A DNA stretch of 64,000 bases, taken from the NCBI GenBank assembly GCA_019218315.1, contig JAHUUI010000006.1:62001-126000 (forward strand). Reading direction: 5' to 3'. This stretch comes from Cardiobacteriaceae bacterium TAE3-ERU3. GTDB lineage: Bacteria; Pseudomonadota; Gammaproteobacteria; Cardiobacteriales; Cardiobacteriaceae. Numbering within the stretch: the first letter of the stretch is position 1; each line of letters begins with the position of its first letter. Below are positions 9,226 through 14,297 of the stretch, piece by piece. The translations under genes were made by a program, and so were the position numbers. The notes beneath the pieces were generated by a model. The model saw only the letters and a list, made by a program, of their open reading frames with translations, was not told the origin of the DNA and did no database searches.

Positions 9226-9644
9226 TGCAGGTTGCACAACCACAATATTGGCTGGCGGTGGCGTGTGCCGAACACGTTACCGTCGGTGTGGCTGGTGGCT
9301 TTATGCAGGTGTGCCACGGTAAGCAAGCGCCACTTAAGCGGATCAAACGCGGTGATAAAGTCGTTTATTATTCGCCCAGCGTGGTGATGGGTAAAGCCGA
9401 TGGCCTGCAATCGTTTACTGCTGTTGGTGAAGTGGTAAACGATCACCCGTATCAGGTTGAAATGTCGGCTGGATTCAAGCCTTTTCGCCGTGATGTTTGC
9501 TGGCAGCCGTTTGCGCCGTTAGCAATCAGGGCATTGCTCGATGAACTGAGCTTTACCCGTGGACGAAAAAATTGGGGTTATATGCTGCGCTTTGGCTTGC
9601 TTAAGATAGAGGAAGCAGATTGGCAGTGCATTTTGAGTGGGTGA
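9225..9644 (+). CDS. EVE domain protein
   Basis: A 139-residue single-domain protein of the EVE (PUA-like) family. Typical features are [12 protein letters not shown] at the N-terminus, the [10 protein letters not shown] turn near residue 43, [12 protein letters not shown], the FKPFRRDV segment, and [14 protein letters not shown] near the C-terminus. EVE domains of this kind are predicted to read modified nucleotides in DNA or RNA; no partner restriction enzyme is fused here. It overlaps the glutathione transferase stop and ends nine bases from the convergent anti-sigma gene. Confidence 0.85.
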
Positions 9645-9653
9645 GGCAATGCC

Positions 9654-9854
9654 TTACCCGTTTTCGTTTGAGTCGTTGCTTTGGTGTTCGCGGTGCAGTT
9701 GCAGCAGCTCGTGCAGGCTCTGCGTGTTCTTTTTGAATTGGCGGCACGGGCGGCACATGCCAGTGTGGATAAAAATTTCGGCTTTTTCCCCAAGGGTGAG
9801 CGGGCGTTCCATGCCGTCGGAGAGCAATTTGGTCATTTCGGTGCAGTTGCGCAT
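9654..9854 (-). CDS. Zinc-binding anti-sigma factor, ZAS/zf-HC2 type (MseR-like)
   Basis: A 66-residue soluble protein with the ZAS zinc signature Cys4-x25-His30-x3-Cys34-x2-Cys37, visible in HTGMCRPCRQF. It has no membrane segment, so a cytoplasmic redox- or metal-sensing anti-sigma is expected, releasing its sigma factor when the zinc thiols are oxidised or displaced. It is the last gene of the six-gene minus-strand operon, 18 bases after the ECF sigma gene. Neisseria has the same pairing (anti-sigma MseR with its ECF sigma). The homology is inferred from the motif and context. Confidence 0.82.
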   Translation of the reverse strand: MRNCTEMTKLLSDGMERPLTLGEKAEIFIHTGMCRPCRQFKKNTQSLHELLQLHREHQSNDSNENG

Positions 9855-9872
9855 GTTTCTTCCTTGTGAGTA

Positions 9873-10460
9873 TTAGTGGTGCAGCCAGTTGCTACCGAGG
9901 CAGCTTTGTAGCTTGAGGCGTGCGCGGTGCATGAGGACGTAGAATTTATTGTCGCTAATCTTACTTTCCGCGCAAATGGCTGGCGTATCCATGTCCAGAT
10001 ATTCGCGCATGAGGAAGACGCGTGATTGTTCAGCGGGTAAGGCATCGAGGCAGTGTTCGAGGACGGTGAAAAAGGCTTCGTTCTCGTAGACTTGATGCGG
10101 GTTGGGTAAAGGTTGCGGTGTGCAGCCTTCTTGCCAGTGGCCGCTTTGGTCGAACAGCCTGTCGACGACGTCATCATGGGCGTCGTCGGCATACTCGGTG
10201 TCTGAGAAGTTGATGCTTTGTTTGCGCCGGAAGTGATCGTTAATGGTGTTTTTCAGGATGCTGAATACCCACGTTTGATAGGCGGATTTGCCGTGGAATT
10301 TGTCCTGATAGGTGAGGGTTTTGATCAGGGCTTCCTGCACGAGGTCTTCAGCGAGACCGTGGTCATTGACCTGATTGTAGGCAAAACGCAGCATAAGCTG
10401 ATGAATGTCGTTGAGCTCGTCGTCGCTGAGGTGGGGATGCTGCGTTTTGCGGGTAGTCAT
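9873..10460 (-). CDS. ECF-type RNA polymerase sigma factor
   Basis: Extracytoplasmic-function sigma factor of 195 residues. Region 2 (about 15-90) contains AEDLVQEALIKTL and YQTWVFSILKNTINDHFRRK. Region 4 (about 125-185) contains LPAEQSRVFLMREYLDM and the helix-turn-helix ICAESKISDNKFYVLMHRAR. It directly precedes the zinc anti-sigma and follows the DoxX gene by 11 bases. In Neisseria the related ECF controls its own operon and msrAB. A candidate promoter ahead of the first gene of this operon (13511-13540) would fit such autoregulation. Confidence 0.93.
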   Translation of the reverse strand: MTTRKTQHPHLSDDELNDIHQLMLRFAYNQVNDHGLAEDLVQEALIKTLTYQDKFHGKSAYQTWVFSILKNTINDHFRRKQSINFSDTEYADDAHDDVVDRLFDQSGHWQEGCTPQPLPNPHQVYENEAFFTVLEHCLDALPAEQSRVFLMREYLDMDTPAICAESKISDNKFYVLMHRARLKLQSCLGSNWLHH

Positions 10461-10471
10461 GTGCGTTTGTC

Positions 10472-11113
10472 TTATTTATAAAGTGAGCGGTTGAGCCAGT
10501 AATCTACGCTAAGGTAGCGTCCGGCACCGTAGATAAATAATACCAGTAACATGATGAAATAGGTGGCAGCAAATTCAATGCCGTTATTGAGGATAACGTA
10601 ATTGCCAGCCTCGGTGAGCCAATTGTAGTTGCCGTGCTGTTGCAGAATGCTGCGCGCCATGTCGAGCTTTTGCGCGACGGCGGCGCTGTTTTCAAGGCTG
10701 GCTTGGCTGCCGGGGATGTTGAGCCAGTTGAGGACGGTGGCGGGGCTGGTGGCAGGGTCGCTTGGAGCGATAGCGAACCAGCCATGTTGCCAATGGACGG
10801 TGGCTGCGGCAATGGCCATGGTAATCATCAGGGCGAAGCTGGTCAGGCGTGTAAACAGCCCAAAGACGAGCAACCAGCCGCCAACGAGTTCCGCAGCGGT
10901 GGCGAGGAAAGCGAGCAGTGTCGGAAAAGGCAGGCCAAGCCCCCAGTCTGGATTGCCGAACCACGCGACGATATTGTCAAACGATTGGTATTTGTTCCAG
11001 CCGGAAATAATCATGATTGGCGCGAGGTAGAGGCGTAGGGCGAGCAGAGGGATGAAGTCGAGCTTTTGCAGGGCAGTGGTGGCGCGATTCCAGCGGTGGG
11101 CGAGTGTGTTCAT
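10472..11113 (-). CDS. DoxX family membrane protein
   Basis: A 213-residue inner-membrane protein with four or five hydrophobic segments. It has the DoxX features ALRLYLAPIMIISGWNKY at about residues 26-43 and the FLATAAELVGGWLLVFGLF segment near residue 90. DoxX proteins accompany Hvf/Buf-type operons, where their role is not firmly known; export, redox supply or membrane anchoring have been suggested for DoxX proteins in general. RBS AAAGGA fixes the start. It lies 18 bases after hvfC and 11 bases before the sigma factor. Confidence 0.87.
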   Translation of the reverse strand: MNTLAHRWNRATTALQKLDFIPLLALRLYLAPIMIISGWNKYQSFDNIVAWFGNPDWGLGLPFPTLLAFLATAAELVGGWLLVFGLFTRLTSFALMITMAIAAATVHWQHGWFAIAPSDPATSPATVLNWLNIPGSQASLENSAAVAQKLDMARSILQQHGNYNWLTEAGNYVILNNGIEFAATYFIMLLVLFIYGAGRYLSVDYWLNRSLYK

Positions 11114-11131
11114 GGGTTTCCTTTATATAGA

Positions 11132-11938
11132 TTATTTGGGTGTTTTTTGGATAAGGGTAAAGAGATTCTGCTGCACAAAATCAGCGAGCAATGGCACGAT
11201 AAATGACAACAGCTTTTGCTGGTCGGCAAAGCCGATGTGGTTTGCGAATTGCGCGAGTAAGCTGCTTTCGTGGCGCGATGGCGCTTCATCGAGGAAAGCG
11301 ACCAATGCGGCGGTCATGGCGTTGGCAGCAATGAAGCGCACGCGGTGGTCATGGTCGCGGAAGACGAACAGATAGGTGTCTTGCGGGGTGTCGGGTTGGT
11401 TGTCGGCGCTGATGCGGTGTACCGGCCAGTGATAGTGAAGGCTGTGCAGGGTCGGATTGGTGACGAGGTCGAAGCTTGCGGGGCTGGTTTCACTCAAGTA
11501 GGTGGTGATGTGTGTCGCTGCGTTGTCGAGCAGTGCTGTGTCGGTGGCTTGGGGATCGCCGCTGTCGGTATCGACCGCGAGTTCAATCCATTCGTAATGG
11601 GCAAGCGCGGCAAACCACGGTGGCAAGTCAAAGCCTCGCGGTTCACTTTGCAGATAGGCGACAAATTGCGCCGGTATCGAGGTGAACATCGGGTCGTCAG
11701 TCGTGCCGCTGCGGAAGAAGTCGCGCACCAGTGCTTGCCATGTGTCGCGGCTGACGATTTTCCGGCACACGGGAAAGCAGGCATCGGTGAAGCTGCGGAT
11801 GTTATTGAAAATCAGTTCCTGATAGGTGTTGGCGGCACGGTCAGGGATGCCACTTGGGCAGGCTGCGTGTTCGGGGTCGCGCAGGTAGCGCCCGAAGTCG
11901 CGCTGGAATTGTTGCAGGGCGATGGGTGGGGTAGTCAT
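11132..11938 (-). CDS. hvfC: HvfC-like DUF2063 protein, partner of the MNIO enzyme
   Basis: A 268-residue cytoplasmic protein. The N-terminal DUF2063 domain (about 1-100) is shown by ALQQFQRDFGRYLRD, YQELIFNNIRSFTDACFPVC and the LVRDFF segment. The C-terminal half is a separate, more variable domain. In characterised Hvf systems HvfC binds the precursor peptide and forms a complex with the DUF692 enzyme HvfB, being needed for modification. The gene overlaps the hvfB stop by four bases (ATGA), as expected for a stoichiometric complex. An older annotation as DNA-binding rests on structural resemblance only. Confidence 0.87.
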   Translation of the reverse strand: MTTPPIALQQFQRDFGRYLRDPEHAACPSGIPDRAANTYQELIFNNIRSFTDACFPVCRKIVSRDTWQALVRDFFRSGTTDDPMFTSIPAQFVAYLQSEPRGFDLPPWFAALAHYEWIELAVDTDSGDPQATDTALLDNAATHITTYLSETSPASFDLVTNPTLHSLHYHWPVHRISADNQPDTPQDTYLFVFRDHDHRVRFIAANAMTAALVAFLDEAPSRHESSLLAQFANHIGFADQQKLLSFIVPLLADFVQQNLFTLIQKTPK

Positions 11939-12831
11939 GCGTGGATTGTCTGCTTATGGAGGGCAAGGGCGATACGGTGTGGCTGCTGCGTAGCCTTGAT
12001 TTGCCGTACTTCGTTGAGCAGTAATTCGATGTGCGGGAAGTTGAAGTCGCGCTCAAGGCAGACCGGCGTGTGTTCGGATAGCTTCGGTTGCAAGTTGTAA
12101 ACGTAGTCGAGCAGTTTCCATACGTCTGTAATGACGTCTGCACCGTGGGTGTCGATGATGAAGCCGTCTTCTTCGACGTAGTGCCCTGCAATGTGCATGT
12201 AGCCGGTTTTGACCAGTGGCAGTTGGCGCAGGTGTTCGTAAGGGTCGTAGTTGAAATTCTGGCTGTTGACATAGACGTTGTTGACGTCGAGATGCAGATA
12301 GCAGCCGGATTCTTCAATGACCGCAGTGATGAATTCGGCTTCGCTCATGTCCGAGCCGGGCGGGGTGAAATAGACCGAGGCATTTTCCAGCCCGATTTGG
12401 CGCTCGAGGATGTCTTGCGTTTGGCGTACGCGTGCGGCGACCCAATGCACGGCTTCTTCGTTGAGCGGAATGGGCAGCAGGTCGTAAAGCTGGCCGTCAT
12501 CGGCCGTCCACGATAGATGCTCGGTAAAGTGGGCAATGTCGTAGTGGGCGAGAAATGCCTTGACGCGCTTGAGGTGCTTGACGTTCAGCGGTGCAGCACT
12601 GCCAATCGACAGCGACAGACCATGTGCCGCAAAAGGCTTGTACGCGGCAAATTCGTCGAGGATGGCGCGGTAACGGCCGCCCATGCCGAGCCAGTTTTCC
12701 GGCGAGACTTCAAAAAAGTCGATGGTATTGGCGCGCTGCGGGTCTTTCATCACTTCGCGCAGAGGCTCGACGAGGTCACGGCGCAGGCCGAGGCCTGCAT
12801 GGCCGATAAAGGGACGGGGTGAGGTGGTCAT
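11935..12831 (-). CDS. hvfB: MNIO (DUF692) peptide-modifying enzyme, HvfB-like
   Basis: Multinuclear non-haem iron oxidative enzyme, TIM-barrel fold, 298 residues. Family residues are in place: His11 in FIGHAGLGLR, FFEVSPENW (Glu41, Glu45, Asn46), HGLSLS (His70), TEHLSW (Glu104, His105), HLDVNNVYVN (Asp182, Asn184, Asn185), MHIAGH (His213, His217), DTHG (His229) and LERDFNFP. HvfB of Haemophilus converts Cys in EGKCG motifs to oxazolone-thioamide pairs. The substrate with five such motifs is encoded just upstream. I choose the ATG at 12831 because AAGGA precedes it; an upstream TTG would add 13 unlike residues. Three hairpins separate it from the peptide gene. Confidence 0.92.
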   Translation of the reverse strand: MTTSPRPFIGHAGLGLRRDLVEPLREVMKDPQRANTIDFFEVSPENWLGMGGRYRAILDEFAAYKPFAAHGLSLSIGSAAPLNVKHLKRVKAFLAHYDIAHFTEHLSWTADDGQLYDLLPIPLNEEAVHWVAARVRQTQDILERQIGLENASVYFTPPGSDMSEAEFITAVIEESGCYLHLDVNNVYVNSQNFNYDPYEHLRQLPLVKTGYMHIAGHYVEEDGFIIDTHGADVITDVWKLLDYVYNLQPKLSEHTPVCLERDFNFPHIELLLNEVRQIKATQQPHRIALALHKQTIHA

Positions 12832-12951
12832 TGTGATTCCTTGCTTGTTATTGGCCAGGTCGCTTGGCAATGGACTATATGGGTAAATGCATTGCCAAGC
12901 CCCCTGAGGGGGCAGCCATACACTGGTATGACTGCCGGCTGTGAATGCTAC
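12832..12951 (-). promoter_or_regulatory. Three consecutive hairpins between hvfA and hvfB
   Basis: In transcript order: an 11-bp stem with one mismatch (12926-12936 with 12911-12921), a GC-rich stem GCCCCC/GGGGGC with a 3-base loop (12913-12908 with 12904-12899), and a perfect 10-bp stem CTTGGCAATG/CATTGCCAAG with a 17-base loop (12899-12890 with 12872-12863). No T-run follows any of them, so they are not classic terminators. They may attenuate transcription or protect the 3' end of the peptide mRNA, giving more peptide than enzyme. Pairing is seen directly; role is inferred. Confidence 0.65.
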
Positions 12952-13419
12952 TTACTTTTTGTCGCCGCCGCATTTGCCTTCGCCGCACTTGGCTTCACCG
13001 GCTTTAGTGTCGCTGGCTGCCTTGTCGCCGCCGCATTTGCCTTCGCCACACTTAGCTTCACCGGCTTTGCTATCGCTGGCTGCCTTGTCGCCACCGCATT
13101 TGCCTTCGCCACATTTGGCTTCACCGGCTTTGCTGTCGCTGGCTGCCTTGTCGCCACCGCACTTGCCTTCACCACATTTGGCTTCGGCTTTTTTCATGTC
13201 TGCCATGCATTGGTCTTTATCGGCTGCTGCGTCACAATCCATTTTATGGTCGCCGCCGCATTTGCCTTCACCACATTTTGCTTCGCCGGCTTTGGTTTCG
13301 TAACCGCCATCAAGTGCTTCAGCGTTGAACAGGTTTTCAGCGTGGGCCATACCAGACAGCGCCATTGCCAGTGAAGAACCGAGTGCCAAAGTGTTAAGTG
13401 TCATTTTTTTCATCGTCAT
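12952..13419 (-). CDS. hvfA: Exported Cys-rich repeat precursor peptide, HvfA-like RiPP
   Basis: A 155-residue precursor. Residues 1-27 are a signal peptide (MKKMTLNTL, hydrophobic core, cleavage after AHA). The mature part has five modules EAKCGEGKCGG at about 46-56, 79-89, 100-110, 121-131 and 142-152; the last four repeat every 21 residues, joined by DKAASD(S/T)KAG. Residues 57-78 carry a different linker with two more Cys (62, 71), making 12 Cys. EGKCG is the motif modified by HvfB/HvfC in Haemophilus to a copper-binding group. It is first in the operon, where high expression would be expected. How many of the ten module cysteines are modified cannot be told. Confidence 0.9.
   Translation of the reverse strand: MTMKKMTLNTLALGSSLAMALSGMAHAENLFNAEALDGGYETKAGEAKCGEGKCGGDHKMDCDAAADKDQCMADMKKAEAKCGEGKCGGDKAASDSKAGEAKCGEGKCGGDKAASDSKAGEAKCGEGKCGGDKAASDTKAGEAKCGEGKCGGDKK
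12957..13190. repeat. 63-bp tandem repeats inside hvfA
   Basis: Three full units of 63 bp plus a partial fourth encode the regular 21-residue EAKCG-EGKCG modules. The units differ at only a few, mostly synonymous positions. A fifth, diverged module lies near 13246-13290. Because the unit is a multiple of three, unequal crossing-over would change module number without shifting the frame. Confidence 0.85.
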
Positions 13420-13449
13420 GTTGTCTCTTGTATTCGTGTTTATTTAAAC

Positions 13450-13504
13450 GAAGGAGAGCAGATCGCGGTCAACTCCGTTTGGTGCGATCCGTTTTTCTCC
13501 CTTC
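13450..13504 (-). promoter_or_regulatory. Structured 5' leader of hvfA
   Basis: Two nested stems: an inner perfect 6-bp pair GATCGC/GCGATC (13484-13489 with 13461-13466) inside an outer pair of about 8 bp with one bulge (13497-13504 with 13450-13458). If transcription starts near 13504, the stem begins at the very 5' end and could stabilise or control the mRNA. Confidence 0.45.
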
Positions 13505-13510
13505 AAGTGG

Positions 13511-13540
13511 TTAGACGCAGTGAAGAGACGGTTTCTTACA
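13511..13540 (-). promoter_or_regulatory. Candidate ECF sigma promoter for the hvf operon
   Basis: On the minus strand TGTAAG, 17 bases, then CGTCTAA. This has the spacing and the CGTC-type -10 element seen with many ECF sigma factors, and is about 90 bases before hvfA. The match is by eye and to a general pattern, not to a known consensus for this sigma. Confidence 0.45.
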
Positions 13541-13600: not shown

Positions 13601-13629
13601 AATAAAAAAGCCCACAATCATTGTGGGCT
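13601..13629 (-). terminator. Rho-independent terminator of the histidine phosphatase gene
   Basis: Stem AGCCCACA/TGTGGGCT with loop ATCAT; read on the minus strand it ends in six T. It lies 24-52 bases after the phosphatase stop and insulates the hvf operon. Confidence 0.92.
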
Positions 13630-13652
13630 CGGCATTTTGGGCAAGATTCAGG

Positions 13653-14297
13653 TTAGCCGATAAATGCTTCGGGGGTGAATTTGGGCATGATGTTGATCGC
13701 GGCGTCATCGCGGCCAGTTTGCCAATGCAGGCGGAATACAGCGGTATTTGGCACCGGCATATTGATTTGCCAGTCGTGGAATAAGCGTAGGTGATGCGCA
13801 GTATGCATAGGATAGCCAAGCAAGCGCCACATGATTAGTTTGATAAACATGCCGTGAATAAATAAGACGCTGCCATCCTCGCGTGTATGTAATGTGTCGA
13901 GGAATTTGCTGACGCGTGCCGAGAATTCGGCAAAGGTTTCGCCGTCCTCACCGACGCGCTCTTGCAGGCTGCATTTGCGCCAATAGCGTTGACCAACAGG
14001 TTGGCGTTGTTTACCAGTCATGCCTTTGACGACGCTGTAGCCGAGTACGTTAAATTCATTGATCAGGCCATCGACTTCCGGCTCGATACCGAGCTTGTCC
14101 AGCCAAGGCTGTGCGGTTTGGCGGGTACGGATGAATTCGGATACGACGACCTTGCTCGGCTCTAGAGTCAGGCGTTCGGCAAGTTGGCGTGCTTGTGCGC
14201 GGCCTTTGGCTGTGAGATCGACTTCGGGATTGGGTTGCGAGATTTCACCCGCATTGGCGGTGCTTTCGGCGTGGCGAATGAGATAGATGGTAGGCAT
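13653..14297 (-). CDS. Histidine phosphatase family protein (phosphoglycerate mutase-like)
   Basis: A cytoplasmic protein of about 214 residues. The catalytic motif is YLIRHAES, with the phospho-accepting His near residue 8. The acid-base Glu is probably in GEDGETFAEFSARV, and the second catalytic His is in VLFIHGMFIKLIMW. The segment VVVSEFIRTRQTAQPW is the usual substrate-pocket region (S-x-x-x-R-x-x-Q-T). I choose the ATG at 14297, since it puts RHAES right after the first strand as in the family; an upstream ATG at 14345 would add 16 unlike residues. Substrate is unknown. Transcribed alone with its own terminator. Confidence 0.83.
   Translation of the reverse strand: MPTIYLIRHAESTANAGEISQPNPEVDLTAKGRAQARQLAERLTLEPSKVVVSEFIRTRQTAQPWLDKLGIEPEVDGLINEFNVLGYSVVKGMTGKQRQPVGQRYWRKCSLQERVGEDGETFAEFSARVSKFLDTLHTREDGSVLFIHGMFIKLIMWRLLGYPMHTAHHLRLFHDWQINMPVPNTAVFRLHWQTGRDDAAINIMPKFTPEAFIG

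Follow-up and report, generated by a model that had tools for sequence, protein, structure and literature searches.

About 2,000 peptide precursors with EGKCG motifs have been reported, mostly from Pseudomonadota, the longest with 58 cysteines (PMC12452194). In Haemophilus influenzae, the precursor HvfA carries three AEGKCGEGKCG motifs with six modified cysteines (PMC13419390), which were originally described as oxazolone-thioamides and have since been reassigned as 5-thiooxazoles (PMC13419390, PMC13097082). The gonococcal EGKCG product also carries 5-thiooxazoles; oxazolin, gonophorin and fontiphorin have been given the class name captophorins, and the latter two have been found bound to copper (PMC13097082). 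A copper-binding ribosomally synthesized and post-translationally modified peptide (RiPP) has furthermore been reported from Microbulbifer (PMC12538549). On the regulatory side, six gene types have been in print as a single Neisseria operon, DoxX gene first, since 2010 (PMC2893595), and this operon is co-transcribed, sigma-E-dependent and under positive feedback (PMC2893595, PMC3240639); in H. influenzae, RpoE2 switches on the DoxX/hvf cluster in response to hypochlorous acid (HOCl) (PMC7907618). Here we analyze a 64,000-nucleotide (nt) stretch of Cardiobacteriaceae bacterium TAE3-ERU3 (contig JAHUUI010000006.1, positions 62,001 to 126,000; hereafter the window) and describe a six-gene locus on its minus strand that is, with considerable confidence, a self-regulated captophorin (oxazolin-type) operon. 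It unites two literatures, one on the thiol-zinc sigma switch known from Neisseria and Haemophilus, the other on the thiooxazole copper peptides. The initial annotation had expected oxazolone-thioamide chemistry, which has been overtaken by the reassignment of the Haemophilus product (PMC13419390, PMC13097082) and by the like finding for the gonococcal one (PMC13097082).

The operon begins with hvfA (12952-13419), which encodes a 155-residue precursor matching the KCGExKCG domain NF050137 in five stretches (82.8 bits, cut-off 19.5). It is followed by hvfB (11935-12834), a DUF692 maturase of the multinuclear non-heme iron-dependent oxidative enzyme (MNIO) kind with 299 residues from the ATG that we take as its start, the open reading frame (ORF) list beginning at an upstream TTG (PF05114, E 4.9e-91; HvfB equivalog NF003818, 361.8 bits, cut-off 360); by hvfC (11132-11938), encoding a DUF2063/PME1 partner protein (PF09836 and PF22106; NF050145, 235 bits, cut-off 142); and by hvfX (10472-11113), encoding a DoxX-family membrane protein (PF07681, E 2.7e-22; NF050144, 239.2 bits, cut-off 80). 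The last two genes encode an extracytoplasmic function (ECF) sigma factor (9873-10460; Sigma70_r2 and Sigma70_r4_2; TIGR02943, 197.7 bits, cut-off 162.2) and a 66-residue zinc-type, MseR/HrsE-like anti-sigma factor (9654-9854; zf-HC2; antisigmaE model NF052368, 60.8 bits, cut-off 50). All family calls were made with Pfam and NCBIfam models, and they bear out the earlier identification of an MNIO-RiPP operon. Structural matches agree: HvfB aligns with PDB 3bww (E 1.6e-65) and HvfC with PDB 3dee (E 7.6e-12), the latter named as gonococcal PME1 (PMC13097082). From hvfA to the anti-sigma gene, 5' to 3', the spacings are 117 nt, a 4-nt overlap, and 18, 11 and 18 nt, so that the single-strand operon with short gaps holds up by its coordinates, the 117-nt gap being structured. 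It is thus well supported that the six genes form a complete-looking operon and belong to a family characterized in Haemophilus and Neisseria.

Within the anti-sigma factor, whose gene lies directly downstream of the ECF gene and carries the Cys-x(n)-His-x3-Cys-x2-Cys pattern, Cys4, His30, Cys34 and Cys37 are the residues described for meningococcal MseR (PMC2893595); together with the antisigmaE match, they substantiate the thiol-zinc sigma/anti-sigma pair that had been proposed. Judged by this partner and by the promoter described next, the ECF sigma factor appears to be of the RpoE2/neisserial sigma-E kind.

Self-regulation, so far suggested by gene content, gains support from a new finding: before hvfA (13510-13539, minus strand) we predict a promoter of the type published for neisserial sigma-E. 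It comprises a -35 core GTAAG (13535-13539), 17 nt, and a -10 element CGTCTAAC (13510-13517) that ends 91 nt before the hvfA ATG. Set against the neisserial consensus, GTMAGBWTT, 12-13 nt, CGTCTAAH (PMC2893595), the site reads GTAAGAAAC, a 13-nt spacer and CGTCTAAC, the -10 matching at 8 of 8 positions. GTAAG-N16/18-CGTCTAA occurs once in the window and never in 100 shuffles of it. Like sites precede hvfA in Moraxella oblonga (GTAAG-N17-CGACTAA) and Moraxella boevrei (GTAAG-N16-CGACTAA), and in a member of the host family (G003) GTCAG-N16-CGTCTAA stands before doxX, the first operon gene there. With the -10 variant CGACTAA (A for T), which was admitted after the Moraxella sites were seen, the exact pattern GTAAG-N16/17-CG[TA]CTAA is found three times in 45 named loci (1.07 Mb, both strands; L031, L032 and L063), always in the orientation of the operon and starting 90-114 nt ahead of the first hvfA start in the list; 20 mononucleotide shuffles of these loci gave 0 or 1 match each. 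Two of the three, M. oblonga (L031) and M. boevrei (L032), are also the only 2 of the 45 loci in which phmmer finds both sigma and anti-sigma genes in the operon, in both cases in the order A-B-C-X-ECF-anti-sigma, the same as here. In an upstream scan of 57 rows, which counts a few places twice and excludes operons lacking a recognized first gene or 120 nt of upstream sequence, the exact site occurs in five (the window twice, L031, L032, L063) and a site with one mismatch in four (G003 twice, L075, L038). Doubled ECF-type sites were seen elsewhere, before MNIO operons with a nearby sigma factor: at L111:4216 and 5866, and at L114:8400 and 8479 (minus), where two identical sites lie 79 nt apart.

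A working model can be drawn from these elements. At rest, the small zinc anti-sigma factor would hold the ECF sigma factor; a thiol oxidant (e.g., hypochlorite) or a thiophilic metal would then strike the cysteine-zinc centre and free the sigma factor, which would use the promoter upstream of hvfA and raise all six genes, including its own and that of its inhibitor. As to the trigger, hypochlorite induces the homologous H. influenzae cluster through RpoE2 (PMC7907618); in meningococcus, peroxide, diamide and singlet oxygen are reported to have left rpoE and msrA/msrB transcripts unchanged (PMC2893595). The locus packs promoter, switch, enzyme, partner and substrate into 3.9 kb and so offers a compact test bed for what triggers the peptide and for the role of HvfX.

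The closest described systems are those of Neisseria, Haemophilus and Moraxella, together with the bufferins. The neisserial operon NMB2140-NMB2145/NGO1948-NGO1943 (gonophorin; MseR) holds the same six gene types (PMC2893595), as the earlier mention of an ECF/MseR pair with related genes in Neisseria had it; it likewise ends in ECF and zinc anti-sigma (ZAS) genes at the 3' end, and has the same -10 motif and the same four zinc-site residues. Its DoxX gene, however, comes first, as it also does in the Haemophilus cluster as listed, whereas here it is fourth. H. influenzae hvf (oxazolin) with RpoE2-HrsE shares the HvfA/B/C/X families, the KCG double modules, sigma control of the peptide genes and an anti-sigma factor of similar length (a 67-residue ZAS versus 66 residues here), but its rpoE2-hrsE pair stands near msrAB as an operon of its own and controls itself to a very limited degree, while the pair here is the tail of the hvf operon; its precursor has three double modules as opposed to five plus an extra cysteine pair. 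M. oblonga and M. boevrei match in gene order, promoter kind and a long hvfA-hvfB gap, with HvfB identities to the window protein of 55% and 53%, and differ in a lipoprotein-like HvfA (M. oblonga) and in base composition. The bufferins (BufA/BufB/BufC) resemble the operon in an MNIO with a DUF2063 partner, an exported cysteine-rich precursor, 5-thiooxazoles (predicted here) and, sometimes, a linked sigma factor; they differ in their precursors (DUF2282 or Buf_6/12Cys) and in the NrsF anti-sigma factor of sigma-linked Buf1, and HvfB scores below the BufB cut-off (245.2 versus 310). What is particular to this locus is its rearranged gene order, its ten KCG cysteines with an added C-x8-C pair, and the lack of a sigma site found before msrAB in the scan described below.

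That last feature bears on what the peptide is for. The msr genes belong to the sigma regulon in Neisseria (PMC2893595) and Haemophilus (PMC7907618). Here, no sigma site (up to three mismatches) was found within the 300 nt upstream of the sole SelR-domain gene found, a span beyond which a more distal promoter is possible; the gene encodes an MsrA/MsrB fusion with a redoxin-like front part (L085:2112-3719, minus) and follows a DNA polymerase III alpha-type gene at a distance of 39 nt. The absence of a site in this span loosens the oxidant-repair link, and thereby an account in which the modified product serves above all to take up oxidants sacrificially, or buffers other soft metals such as gold and silver, with copper secondary. 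We consider this account unlikely, although sigma/anti-sigma pairs of this kind are linked to oxidants, the H. influenzae homologues are induced by HOCl (PMC7907618), and the strongest neisserial sigma-E targets are msrA/msrB together with the six-gene operon (PMC2893595, PMC3240639); the copper binding reported for related products (PMC13097082) also speaks against it. Copper buffering, as first suggested, is instead supported by analogy with these named relatives.

Several observations weigh against a self-regulated captophorin operon, some touching its control and others its chemistry. As to control, the -35 element matches the neisserial consensus at only 6 of 9 positions. Genome-wide (2.41 Mb), the exact motif is no commoner than its reversed control (2 versus 2), and GTMAG-N16/17-CGWCTAA finds 2 places as against 3 for the reversed control. 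Furthermore, of the 10 loci in which an ECF or anti-sigma gene is linked, only 6 have a site on the operon strand with no more than one mismatch (the ten being the window, L031, L032, L079 and L110-L115). Conversely, L063 (exact; a short contig), L075 and L038 (one mismatch each) have sites with no linked sigma gene found; those of L075 and L038 may reflect control in trans or chance. Among the ten loci, the ECF-type site of L110 lies on the opposite strand and L112, L113 and L115 have none, the contig of L115 beginning inside hvfA; L114 has an MNIO that is not a close HvfB relative, with its sigma pair about 4 kb away. When one mismatch is allowed (spacing 17, CGTCTAA), 3 places are found genome-wide versus 19 for the control. 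Because genome-wide counts do not exceed those of reversed controls, the motif convinces by its position and not by its count. A larger regulon was considered and rejected, the motif being no commoner than reversed controls in these pattern searches.

These points invite the alternative that the sigma/anti-sigma pair merely rides along, controlling other genes while hvfA-hvfX are read from a housekeeping promoter. In its favour, 43 of the 45 named loci yielded no linked sigma gene (several contigs being short), a weak sigma-70-like site matching 9 of 12 letters lies at 13595-13567, and a second exact ECF site stands before a solute-binding-protein gene elsewhere in the genome. Yet an ECF-type site lies directly upstream of hvfA both here and in the two Moraxella loci, and sigma-70-like sites are fewer than in shuffles (2 versus a mean of 3.7), which makes riding along very improbable.

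As to chemistry, HvfB clears its NCBIfam equivalog cut-off by a mere 1.8 bits, and HvfA falls below that of the HvfA equivalog NF050188 (76.7 versus 95). The first cysteine of each HvfA pair sits in EAKCG rather than EGKCG, and a Fontimonas substrate with an AKCGA substitution is reported to have been modified once only (PMC13097082). It could be, then, that HvfB has drifted so as to install a different modification or to form few of the ten rings; its long end branch (1.05) in our tree points the same way as its score and the EAKCG sites. We regard such drift as decidedly unlikely, for HvfB departs at just 5 of the positions with at least 95% conservation across the other 74 rows of its alignment, none of them His, Asp or Glu, and M. 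boevrei HvfA uses EAKCG too. In this alignment (75 rows, after prior removal of 6 long-branch or distant ones from 81), H71, H106, E150, N151, N186, H214, H218 and H230 are invariant in all 75 aligned rows, the window protein included, and these columns presumably include the iron ligands. By homology, HvfB would, together with HvfC, convert the KCG cysteines of HvfA to 5-thiooxazoles before export, each ring formed being expected to change the mass by -4 Da per cysteine. The exported peptide would then bind copper outside the cytoplasm, with HvfX acting at the membrane.

HvfA itself, which has no Pfam match, begins with a Sec-type signal peptide (read by eye) and carries an F-x4-L-x2-GY element (FNAEALDGGY) that a regular expression also finds in 33 of 56 KCG precursor entries, duplicates counted. 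The five double-cysteine modules noted at first are confirmed: EAKCGEGKCG units account for ten of the twelve cysteines, and Cys62 and Cys71 lie outside them, forming a Cys62-x8-Cys71 pair between modules 1 and 2 in an extra segment (residues 57-82; 13174-13251, minus). The module array corresponds to a 63-bp tandem repeat (12959-13185, 3.6 copies) with 93% matches, so a recent tandem duplication likely gave rise to it. The claim that the product is probably undescribed stands for this peptide sequence but not for its class, the captophorins being described; a literature search of limited coverage turned up no paper on this operon.

The extra pair is uncommon and shared by a few precursors. 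Non-CG cysteines beyond residue 25 occur in 9 of 63 distinct KCG-bearing frames, and a C-x(6-11)-C pair in an Ala-rich charged stretch is found, likeness being judged by reading, in the window (L001), G003 (L030), M. boevrei (L032) and Rudaea (L075), with a looser version in G007 (L027); M. oblonga (L031) lacks it. In an AlphaFold2 model of HvfA, the mean predicted local distance difference test score (pLDDT) is 47.4, with residues 82-155 below 50; the best blocks are residues 61-70 (mean 78) and 71-80 (mean 69), and a single helix spans 68-83. The beta-helix proposed for such precursors (PMC12452194) was not reproduced in this model, a result that decides little because the input alignment was thin (10 rows) and the protein was modelled unmodified. 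Tentatively, and with a good deal of doubt, HvfA might be a two-part metallopeptide, with ten HvfB-made thiooxazole sites and a small helical C-x8-C left as thiols, the latter serving as a redox latch or second metal site shared by several clade members; in the same speculative proposal, the six genes would make up a mobile cassette, a self-contained "sensor plus chelator" common to a Moraxella lineage and this one. By reading, M. oblonga HvfA (L031:2796-3272) shows a lipobox-like AGTVACSQQ at the end of its signal peptide, and its product may be membrane-anchored.

How the operon came to this host is suggested by its relatives. Across a relatives sample of 115 genomes including its own, an HvfB-type match is present in 60, above the cut-off in 29, and the anti-sigma family in 21. 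Among 12 genomes of the host family, hvfB occurs in 5 and the anti-sigma gene in 3 (G000, G003, G011), in all of which the two are located together; both are missing from G001, the one genome of the same genus that was sampled. A class-level sample of 369 genomes holds anti-sigma matches in 81 and HvfB-type matches in 222; adjacency counts around hvfB are lower bounds there, and among the matches listed the anti-sigma gene lies just upstream of hvfB in at least G114, G158, G265 and G363, so the switch can lead or trail the hvf genes. In the HvfB tree, the window protein groups with those of M. oblonga and M. boevrei (100/99), and its sigma factor lies beside Moraxella ECFs (94/89). A vertical origin of hvfB in the host family was rejected: the constraint that keeps the window protein and this family together costs 41.6 log units (approximately unbiased test, p = 0.0037), in a comparison that used 40 of 81 rows with long branches, an unsettled bootstrap and a group chosen after the first tree was seen. 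Since HvfB sides with Moraxella and not with the family of its host, horizontal acquisition of the operon is likely, and the simplest reading; for hvfB, old duplication and loss may be an alternative to transfer. The G+C content of the operon is 55%, as compared to 50% for the window and 38-39% for the Moraxella loci, figures that do not mark these Moraxella as recent donors; a transfer would thus be old or from another source. The promoter and gene order common to Moraxella and this locus hint at a coupling of greater age or mobility than Neisseria by itself would reveal.

Two regions of the transcript are predicted to fold. The 117-nt hvfA-hvfB intergenic region (12835-12951, minus) contains two strong stem-loops, with -45.8 kcal/mol, z = -4.33 and none of 200 shuffles folding as well; in the two Moraxella loci, too, hvfA and hvfB stand far apart (318 and 214 nt, measured to the first hvfB start in the list). 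These stem-loops after hvfA may hold the precursor mRNA above the enzyme mRNA. If transcription starts according to the neisserial rule (a conserved A six nt after the -10), the mRNA would have an 84-nt 5' leader with a hairpin (13420-13503, minus), whose fold (13400-13503; z = -2.52, 2 of 200 shuffles as good) is weaker than that of the hvfA-hvfB gap.

Beyond the operon, the second exact ECF-type site (G000:C4:78367-78395, minus; L076:1501-1529) stops about 37 nt short of what is likely the start of the solute-binding-protein gene, the start in the ORF list being further upstream. That gene is followed by a 552-residue frame without a Pfam match and then an ABC ATPase gene, and two flavin-oxidoreductase-type genes lie ahead of it. 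The site stays a mere candidate because the lone exact site in G003, inside the start of a frame that is kinase-like by reading, looks like chance. Around the operon, a plus-strand EVE-domain gene ending at 9644 converges with the operon end at 9654, and the upstream neighbour is a histidine-phosphatase-family gene on the operon strand, ending at 13653. Between this gene and the hvf promoter, a consensus scan alone marks an intrinsic-terminator-like hairpin (13608-13630, minus); the four terminator-like sites in the region are fewer than the shuffle mean of 8.5. Finally, L082:5493-7628 (minus) encodes a 711-residue fusion of a VTT-domain membrane protein with a pyridine nucleotide-disulphide oxidoreductase.

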